NCBI GenBank assembly: GCA_902783995.1
Contig: CACZTG010000023.1
Location: 1 to 8,688, forward strand
DNA length: 8,688 nt
Source: an uncultured Ruminococcus sp.
GTDB taxonomy: Bacteria; Bacillota_A; Clostridia; RUG12999
Direction of reading: 5' to 3'
A model generated the notes under the pieces. It did not search any database and was not told where the DNA came from. It saw only the letters and a program-made list of their open reading frames with translations. The translations under genes were made by a program, and so were the position numbers. Shown here piece after piece: positions 161 through 716 of this stretch. Every line of letters begins with the position of its first letter. Within the stretch, counting starts at the first letter, position 1.

Positions 161-189
161 TTGTAAAATTTATAAATTAGTGTTATAAT
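161..189 (+). promoter_or_regulatory. Sigma-A promoter of tandem RNA copy 1
   Basis: TTGTAA (161-166), a 17-bp spacer and an exact TATAAT (184-189). The expected start, seven bases after the -10 element, is G196. This is precisely the first base of the GCUAC strand of the closing helix of RNA copy 1. The same promoter, with the same hexamers and the same start offset, precedes copy 2. Confidence 0.85.
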
Positions 190-195
190 ATAGTT

Positions 196-421
196 GCTAC
201 AACTTTTAACGTTGCCGAGCAATAGGCAACACATATTTCATAAAATAGTCATTTAGGGGGTACGCTATATGCAAAAAGCGTACACTCTTGTTTCATCATA
301 CCCCTATGTGATATTTTATTTGGTGTTATGGTTAAAAAGTGTGTAGCAACCTTTTGAAACAGAGTCCCTGCGTTTTTTGGTGCGCGGTTTCTCTTGAAAA
401 AGGGGGCTGCGCACTTTTTTT
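196..421 (+). ncRNA. Structured RNA, tandem copy 1 (about 226 nt, class not identified)
   Basis: Likely an independent transcript: promoter at 161-189, predicted start at 196, intrinsic terminator ending at 421. Visible fold: closing helix P1 pairs 196-210 with 331-347 (two small bulges). P2 is a hairpin, 211-216 with 225-230. Arm P3 pairs 240-246 with 313-319, P4 pairs 254-259 with 301-306, and P5 pairs TACGCT 261-266 with AGCGTA 277-282. The single-stranded segment 284-294 (ACUCUUGUUUC) can pair with GAAACAGAGU 356-365 outside P1, making a long-range pseudoknot. Copy 2 has the same topology, with pairing-preserving base changes. No translated frame is conserved between copies. It could be a stand-alone regulatory RNA or the aptamer part of a riboswitch-like leader. 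I do not recognise the family; raiA, 6S and Clostridiales-1 RNAs are the classes I would compare first. Confidence 0.8.
380..421 (+). terminator. Intrinsic terminator of RNA copy 1
   Basis: GTGCGC (380-385) pairs with GCGCAC (409-414). The stem extends inward through a GU-rich helix closed by a GAAA-type loop, and seven T residues follow (415-421). All 42 bases are identical to the terminator of copy 2. The 3' strand (406-414) can alternatively pair with GTGTGTAGC of the P1 helix (339-347), which would disrupt the terminator. Confidence 0.88.
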
Positions 422-452
422 AGGTATTTATTTAAAAATTTATTAAAATATA

Positions 453-481
453 TTGTAAAATTCATAAATTGATGATATAAT
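453..481 (+). promoter_or_regulatory. Sigma-A promoter of tandem RNA copy 2
   Basis: TTGTAA (453-458), a 17-bp spacer and TATAAT (476-481), with the expected start at G488, again the first base of the closing helix. The upstream stretch 422-452 is almost pure A/T with short A and T tracts, which resembles an UP element. This is the only clear promoter upstream of the SLOG gene at 730. Confidence 0.85.
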
Positions 482-487
482 ATATAT

Positions 488-716
488 GCTACAACTTTTA
501 ACCGCTGCCGGGTAACGGCAGCCTGATAATGAATAAATTGTTGAAAGGGATATACAGGCTTCTTGTAAAAAGCGTAAACTCCTGTTTCTTTGTATATCCT
601 TATTTTTACGTTTATTCATACGGATAGTTAAAAGTGTGTAGCAACCTTTTGAAACGGAGTCACTGCGTTTTTTGGTGCGCGGTTTCTCTTGAAAAAGGGG
701 GCTGCGCACTTTTTTT
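488..716 (+). ncRNA. Structured RNA, tandem copy 2 (about 229 nt), leader of the SLOG gene
   Basis: This is a paralogue of the RNA at 196-421 with the same order of elements. P1 pairs 488-502 with 627-642. P2 pairs GCTGCCG 504-510 with CGGCAGC 516-522. P3 pairs 529-537 with 611-619 (nine perfect pairs). P4 pairs 548-556 with 591-599. P5 pairs GCTT 558-561 with AAGC 570-573. The strand ACUCCUGUUUC 578-588 can pair with GAAACGGAGU 651-660 as a pseudoknot. The arm helices differ strongly in sequence from copy 1 but keep pairing, while the segment 567-588 and the 3' region 634-716 are nearly identical. The terminator directly abuts the Shine-Dalgarno of the next gene, so this copy may be both a transcript in its own right and a cis-acting leader. 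Confidence 0.8.
675..716 (+). terminator. Intrinsic terminator of RNA copy 2, abutting the SLOG ribosome site
   Basis: GTGCGC (675-680) pairs with GCGCAC (704-709) around a GU-rich inner stem, followed by seven T residues (710-716). The Shine-Dalgarno AAGGAG starts at the very next base (717). Full termination here would silence the SLOG gene, so expression needs readthrough or antitermination. A competing pairing of 634-642 with 701-709 (nine pairs, two of them G-U) is visible. Confidence 0.88.

Follow-up and report, generated by a model that had tools for sequence, protein, structure and literature searches.

Cobalamin-class riboswitches include transcription attenuators in which a pseudoknot reaches a strand 3′ of the P1 helix. 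Metabolite riboswitches usually show a unifying biochemical theme, and a P1 helix that starts exactly at +1 is unusual for a riboswitch. T-box leaders are terminator/antiterminator leaders of Firmicutes. 6S RNA has its closing stem at the ends of its own transcript, with its own promoter and terminator; no terminator/antiterminator exchange is known in 6S RNA. The raiA motif, or ModT RNA, is a structured RNA found in Clostridia (PMC11706538), and orphan riboswitch candidates have opened unexpected areas of metabolism and signalling (PMC7266159).

Here we analyse a tandem pair of structured RNAs within an 8,688-nt stretch of DNA from an uncultured Ruminococcus sp.; 'the window' denotes this whole stretch. 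Like cobalamin-class attenuators, these RNAs have an upstream folded domain, a P1 3′ strand shared with an antiterminator, a terminator before the ribosome-binding site and several copies per genome. Unlike them, they lack an Rfam match and an evident metabolic theme, P1 lies at +1, each of the two terminator arms resembles a different upstream strand (P1 5′ or PK1 5′), and the P3 3′ strand is contested by the first U-run too. They share with 6S RNA the closing stem at the transcript ends and the private promoter and terminator, but differ in having no Rfam match, in standing in many copies before different genes and in their terminator/antiterminator exchange. With T-box leaders they share a terminator/antiterminator leader, whereas they have no Rfam match and their downstream genes are not related to amino acids or tRNA. 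They are structured and clostridial like the raiA motif, yet Rfam's models for that motif do not match the window at E ≤ 5 and the RNA here is a leader with an antiterminator. Tandem pseudo-cooperative riboswitches are treated in the review PMC9481103, whose main text uses none of the terms 'own promoter', 'two promoters' or 'separate promoter'; in the pair analysed here, a promoter belongs to every unit as well.

We consider it quite likely, from comparative evidence, that each copy is a cis-acting transcription attenuator and a candidate riboswitch belonging to a family outside Rfam, and the best reading of its history is repeated duplication as whole cassettes. The family is real and apparently new, and the label that fits it best is orphan riboswitch candidate. 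Membership in the riboswitch kind hinges on ligand binding, and the candidate is called riboswitch-like here by comparison.

Two cassettes in tandem

The window holds two cassettes, at 161–421 and 453–716, each with the promoter, closing helix and terminator that the first-pass annotation had assigned to two repeated units. Both follow one layout: TTGTAA-N17-TATAAT, six bases, then an RNA ending with an intrinsic terminator. The promoters had been placed correctly, with a 17-nt spacer in both, and the RNAs, put earlier at about 226 and 229 nt, measure 226 nt and 229 nt from the closing helix to the end of the U-run. The features are as follows.

161–189, + strand: copy 1 promoter, −35 TTGTAA at 161–166 and −10 TATAAT at 184–189; its distance to P1 is the consensus of 127 family members
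196–421, + strand: copy 1, whole RNA to U-run end; 160.6 bits with model R1 (the copy is itself in the R1 training set)
196–207, + strand: copy 1 P1 5′ strand, GCUACA at 196–201 and CUUUU at 203–207, pairing with 335–347; family covariation
260–283, + strand: copy 1 P3 hairpin, GUACGC at 260–265 with GCGUAC at 278–283, A-run at 273–277; family covariation (helix 4)
273–282, + strand: copy 1 P4 5′ strand, AAAAAGCGUA, an alternative pairing of the P3 3′ strand, partner 369–378
284–294, + strand: copy 1 PK1 5′ strand, ACUCUUGUUUC; strand covariation
335–347, + strand: copy 1 P1 3′ strand, AAAAGUGUGUAGC, also the outer antiterminator strand; strand covariation
356–365, + strand: copy 1 PK1 3′ strand, GAAACAGAGU, also the inner antiterminator strand; strand covariation
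369–378, + strand: copy 1 P4 3′ strand, UGCGUUUUUU, the first U-run; own-versus-swapped strand energies
380–421, + strand: copy 1 intrinsic terminator, hairpin 380–414 and U-run 415–421
453–481, + strand: copy 2 promoter, −35 TTGTAA at 453–458 and −10 TATAAT at 476–481
488–716, + strand: copy 2, whole RNA to U-run end; 123.6 bits with R1 (the copy is itself in the R1 training set)
488–499, + strand: copy 2 P1 5′ strand, partner 630–642; minimum-energy fold
552–577, + strand: copy 2 atypical P3, AUAC-AG-GC at 552–559 with GCGUAA at 572–577; alignment and fold
578–588, + strand: copy 2 PK1 5′ strand, ACUCCUGUUUC; strand comparison
630–642, + strand: copy 2 P1 3′ strand and outer antiterminator strand; strand comparison
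651–660, + strand: copy 2 PK1 3′ strand, GAAACGGAGU, and inner antiterminator strand; strand comparison
664–673, + strand: copy 2 P4 3′ strand, UGCGUUUUUU; own-versus-swapped strand energies
675–716, + strand: copy 2 intrinsic terminator, hairpin 675–709 and U-run 710–716; fold and alignment
717–722, + strand: Shine–Dalgarno sequence AAGGAG, directly adjoining the copy 2 U-run
730–1263, + strand: YpsA-type SLOG gene behind the tandem leaders, 177 amino acids, likely start at 730; PF06908, E 1.5e-9 over 721–1260

Aligned with their flanks (MAFFT), the two copies showed 85% mean column identity, with the longest identical stretches lying within the promoter, in the closing helix and in the 3′-most third. 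Folding energies were far below those of dinucleotide shuffles for copy 1 (195–423, z −6.26) and copy 2 (488–717, z −7.33), with 0/200 shuffles as good in either case. The arms diverge yet can pair, as had been noted from the two copies: the pseudoknot is ACUCUUGUUUC:GAAACAGAGU in copy 1 versus ACUCCUGUUUC:GAAACGGAGU in copy 2. The long closing helix ascribed to both units was present in the minimum-energy fold of copy 2, whereas that of copy 1 had a competing 3′ hairpin instead, a difference that fits a terminator/antiterminator switch. P3 of copy 2 is atypical, with AG inserted in its 5′ strand and the outer P3 pair lost; in a 38-row alignment it was the sole row with this insertion, which is a possible specificity change. 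Given this difference at P3, the two copies may not respond alike.

An RNA family outside Rfam

The architecture had initially been matched to no known class, and Rfam 15 agrees: none of its covariance models, including raiA, 6S, T-box, c-di-GMP and Clostridiales-1, gave a credible match to the RNA. At E ≤ 5 the RNA drew a single match, mir-242, which overlaps copy 1 on the − strand and scored 20.6 bits against a cutoff of 54; the other match, glmS (19 bits, cutoff 37), lay elsewhere in the window. At gathering scores, no Rfam 15 model matched over the RNA in 30 relatives; tRNA and 5S rRNA were hit beside it in two loci only. The motif was not found in a literature search covering mainly open-access main texts, among them PMC8040213, PMC11109978, PMC8632094, PMC9481103, PMC13273304 and PMC6459960.

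Searching for homologues with a new covariance model, as the first-pass annotation had proposed, was productive. Model R1, built from 14 aligned copies including both window copies, was applied to 391 genomes of the same class and matched 60; these carriers represent 38 of 222 genera and, as we count them, 15 family labels. No R1 match was found in the window's nearest compared genomes (G001–G004), and blastn against 99 relative genomes gave a match in 15, several of them to the promoter part only. Among 84,980 named genomes the core pattern occurred in 28 contigs, all of them MAG records, titled 'Clostridia bacterium' (19, with ruminant gut sites named in the titles), 'Oscillospiraceae bacterium' (8) or 'uncultured Ruminococcus' (1); R1 matched 28/28, some of which are the same DNA as loci from other searches. 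A second model, R2, was built from 86 matches; at E ≤ 0.001 the number of matches per genome ranged from 1 to 20 across 40 chosen carriers, with the maximum of 20 copies in genome G275 and 11 in G254. R2 found 40/40 of these carriers, but they had been preselected by an R1 match and the smaller number of genomes meant looser filters; across the phylum it matched 0/398 genomes, under strict filters and with no positive control within the set.

Covariation defines a conserved fold

The proposal that selection acts on structure was strengthened by two-sided changes in 24/24 base pairs of an alignment of 86 members, 85 of its rows being distinct, that had been fitted to the structure of R1. In this alignment 93.7% of cells were paired, a value that 0/500 shuffles reached, and sliding controls gave 27–45%; helix 1 was paired in 99.2% of cells. 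In the upstream domain, P1 is followed by a conserved bulge (UNAAUA), then by P2 and the P3 hairpin, providing the conserved domain with covarying structure that is expected of a riboswitch or transcription attenuator.

A wider set combined alignment A5 (matches at E ≤ 3e-6 from 85 chosen sources, with duplicates and some weak ones left out) with A7 to give 132 aligned rows, from which one without a terminator, one duplicate and two without a clear first U-run were dropped, leaving 128 elements. Their P1 types were GCUACA (51), ACCACA (17), GCGACA (13), GUCACA (7) and GCCACG (7), down to UCACCA (1). One pairing lies outside the nested helices: pseudoknot PK1 joins the strand that follows P3 (ACUCUUGUUUC and variants) to a strand downstream of P1 (GAAACAGAGU). 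Its strands change jointly, to AUCUGGU:ACCAGAU in L008, ACUUUGUUUC:GAAACAAAGU in L043 and CUCUGAUU:AAUCAGAG in L084.

Probable strand exchange at the terminator

The P1 3′ and PK1 3′ strands covary with their upstream partners and also with both terminator arms, a dual covariation that is the signature of a terminator/antiterminator switch. We scored strand energies within each RNA against partners swapped between RNAs, a permutation that preserves strand make-up but not phylogeny, in 124 of the 128 elements; the other four lacked a recognizable A-run or had too short a PK1 3′ segment. With 49 representatives, the z scores were −22.5 for P1, −10.5 for PK1, −9.7 for P3, −17.1 for the terminator, −5.7 for the inner antiterminator and −3.4 for the outer antiterminator, against −1.4 to +0.5 for four unrelated strand pairs used as controls. 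Outlying controls were the middle region with T5 (z −2.1 in an early, badly clustered set of seven representatives) and one at z +1.9 with 86 representatives. With 17 strict representatives, the inner and outer antiterminators scored −3.4 and −3.6, respectively.

When the 3′ domain was free, at least 8 nt of P1 3′ plus PK1 3′ paired with the terminator region in 15/17, versus 29% of shuffled strands. The outer antiterminator was the weakest helix: its own pairing was worse than the median foreign partner in 18/49 representatives, and its mean energy by P1 type was −6.2 kcal/mol for GCUAGA (6 members), −7.1 for GCAACA and −14.4 for GCUACA (51 members). Covariation points to a mutually exclusive terminator and antiterminator, with the outer antiterminator helix weaker than the inner.

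A further pairing, P4, joins the conserved A-run and P3 3′ strand (AAAAAGCGUA) to the conserved UGCGUUUUUU between PK1 and the terminator. It scored z −4.0, −6.2 and −8.5 at 17, 49 and 86 representatives, and −2.8, −3.8 and −4.4 when the stem was scored minus the A- and U-runs, whose lengths among the 124 were 5/6 in 44, 5/5 in 30, 4/5 in 29 and other in 21. P4 adjoins PK1 without a break and cannot coexist with P3, so it may form a second switch layer or else tug on the polymerase when this reaches the first U-run. A Shine–Dalgarno sequence and start followed by at least six codons and a stop lay inside the element in only 11/128, and attenuation here would need no leader peptide.

A putative two-state leader

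We propose that transcription begins at the first base of P1 and that the upstream domain then folds into a long rod of P1, UNAAUA bulge, P2 and hairpin P3, with the PK1 5′ strand, in the P2 loop, pairing with the strand downstream of P1. The adjacent P1 3′ and PK1 3′ strands would have second partners in T3 and T5, the two terminator arms, which mimic P1 5′ and PK1 5′. As long as P1 and PK1 are kept paired by the upstream domain, the terminator would form and the transcript would stop just before the ribosome-binding site; once the domain releases them, P1 3′ and PK1 3′ would pair with the terminator arms as an antiterminator, and the gene would be transcribed. Pairing of the P3 3′ strand and A-run with the first U-run in P4 would leave P3 contested too. 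A tandem would act as two serial gates with two promoters, such that transcripts from the first promoter pass both terminators and those from the second pass one.

Comparison among family members supports the helices and the fixed promoter, the place before genes, and a dual role for the 3′ strands. If the element is a switch, an effector probably stabilizes P1/PK1 and thereby turns the gene off, and we lean slightly towards a small molecule or ion over a protein. Tentatively, and with slightly less than even confidence, the elements could represent a new class of riboswitch whose signal is one that RNA is not yet known to sense. With as many as about 20 copies in a genome, it would globally regulate surface and secreted proteins of uncultured Clostridia through a three-layer strand exchange (P1/PK1, antiterminator, and P3/P4 with the first U-run). 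The promoter would then be part of the switch, since the first transcribed base would be the first sensor base. The family combines strong covariation and high copy number with a switching model open to testing, and many of its genes encode secreted or surface proteins; the candidate RNA lends itself to synthesis and assay in vitro, with no need for the source organism. Specialists would want an explanation for two unusual traits, the locked promoter and the tandems of whole cassettes.

Downstream genes and a possible protein effector

The position before the SLOG gene had been read as an argument for a leader; evidence across the family favours the leader role, and SLOG is one among many downstream genes. 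A Pfam scan of 72 downstream proteins gave SLH (10), YpsA SLOG (10), Cu-amine-oxidase-N (5), BspA-type LRR_5 (4), LRR_8 (2) and MazE-like (2) matches, with every remaining family seen once. A heuristic sort of 112 unique downstream proteins gave 60 with a signal-peptide- or membrane-like start, 15 SLOG proteins by motif, 32 small proteins and 5 others, a few SLOG-like proteins falling in other bins; by this rough sort, the genes mostly encode secreted, small or SLOG proteins. The Pfam assignments of the 72 proteins revealed no single biochemical theme, which counts against a metabolite riboswitch.

The attenuator could instead respond to an RNA-binding protein, possibly an autoregulating SLOG product, that holds or breaks P1/PK1. 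This variant, whose probability overlaps with that of the attenuator reading in general, strikes us as conceivable but doubtful. SLOG is the commonest recognizable intracellular target (15 of the 112 by motif), its relatives are enriched in carriers of the RNA (25/60 versus 26/331 other genomes; odds ratio 8.4, partly reflecting the SLOG genes behind the RNA themselves), and a diverse regulon suits a global regulator. However, a SLOG match at E ≤ 1e-10 was lacking in 35/60 carriers, only 6 of the 20 best SLOG loci contained an R2 match (E < 0.001) at any point, and the size and conserved loops of the RNA would fit a ligand pocket.

SLOG as the sole partner was rejected, as the other 14 of the 20 best SLOG loci lacked an R2 match and most of the RNAs precede other genes; a SLOG–RNA link remains through the enrichment in carriers. 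Upstream of several SLOG genes without the RNA (L169–L188) were short reverse-strand frames that by eye appeared DNA-binding or relaxosome-like, which suggests that those SLOG genes are mobile-element cargo. Small AbrB/MazE-like proteins with a C-terminal CxxC motif recurred behind the RNA in L084, L110, L153, L163 and L074.

Leader position and promoter

Setting aside ten upstream tandem members and one element at a contig end left 117 of the 128 elements scorable for position, a set de-duplicated only for exact copies. For a Shine–Dalgarno sequence and start codon behind the terminator, limits of 30, 60, 120 and 400 nt gave 69, 83, 101 and 113 elements, against 1%, 4%, 9% and 38% of 98 other terminator-like hairpins from the same loci. 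Among non-redundant members (n = 48) the counts were 27, 35, 40 and 45. This proximity argues that the RNA is a leader, placed 5′ of a gene as riboswitches and attenuators are.

The promoter stood at one fixed distance from P1 in the 127 elements with enough upstream sequence, with the consensus TTG at −35 to −33 (98, 87 and 78%), TG at −15/−14 (92 and 86%) and TATAAT at −12 to −7 (91, 91, 65, 89, 72 and 92%). This fixed distance supports the RNA start that had been annotated, since transcription should begin at or beside the base that opens P1. A P1 at +1 would also suit selection for a stable transcript that functions alone, the other role considered at the outset, in which the terminated 226–229-nt product would act in trans and the genes behind it would be incidental. 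Such a role would accord with the RNA's private promoter and terminator, its many copies per genome and its duplication in tandem. We nevertheless judge it improbable: the location of a ribosome-binding site and start within 60 nt of the terminator so much more often than for control hairpins, together with the covarying antiterminator pairings, which a stand-alone RNA does not need, favours the leader of the two roles first entertained.

A known second messenger is unlikely as effector

A variant sensor of a known second messenger, above all c-di-GMP, would suit the frequency of surface proteins (SLH in 10 of 72, along with the Cu-amine-oxidase-N and BspA-type LRR proteins), and GGDEF proteins were encoded in 16/20 carriers. 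By contrast, c-di-GMP riboswitch models did not match the RNA, and c-di-GMP-I riboswitches were separately present in 8/20 carriers. In 4/20 carriers GGDEF was not found at E ≤ 1e-10, although these MAGs may be incomplete; they include G254 and G275, the genome with the most copies, which makes c-di-GMP an unlikely effector. We give the sensor variant as a whole very little credence.

Tandems, synteny and partial copies

Whole-cassette tandem pairs occurred ten times among the 128 elements, so the pair in the window, with its gap of 66 nt, is a recurrent arrangement. The gaps measured 45–66 nt in eight, approximately the room needed by a promoter. In L005 the tandem gap (1708–1902) contains the first codons of a SLOG gene, and this tandem therefore seems to have arisen by duplication of the RNA together with the gene start.

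Similarity between the window and the syntenic stretch of G001, the nearest genome, stops at about 1313, just past the MATE gene, which places the RNA pair and SLOG gene, within 1–1313, in a variable segment. An origin from phages or plasmids was considered and rejected: blastn against phage and plasmid collections gave no match to the RNA, and three viral contigs with the core pattern had no R1 match at E ≤ 0.001. That the elements are merely a mobile or repetitive non-coding cassette of promoter and terminator inserting before genes is scarcely credible, because the many copies, tandems, different genes and adjoining synteny break that might suggest it are countered by long-range covariation within copies, a consistent distance to the ribosome-binding site and these same negative phage, plasmid and viral searches.

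Two partial copies accompany the family. In L017 a fragment of 45 nt on the − strand (1501–1545) shares 93% identity with the 3′ portion of copy 1; R1 scored 47 bits over 1505–1630, the P3/PK1 part was missing by eye, and the fragment is probably a decayed copy. In L025 a shortened copy (1850–1986, − strand; 36 bits) keeps the promoter and 3′ module with most of the P3/PK1 half gone, and is placed directly after a SLOG gene and before a gene for a secreted-type protein.
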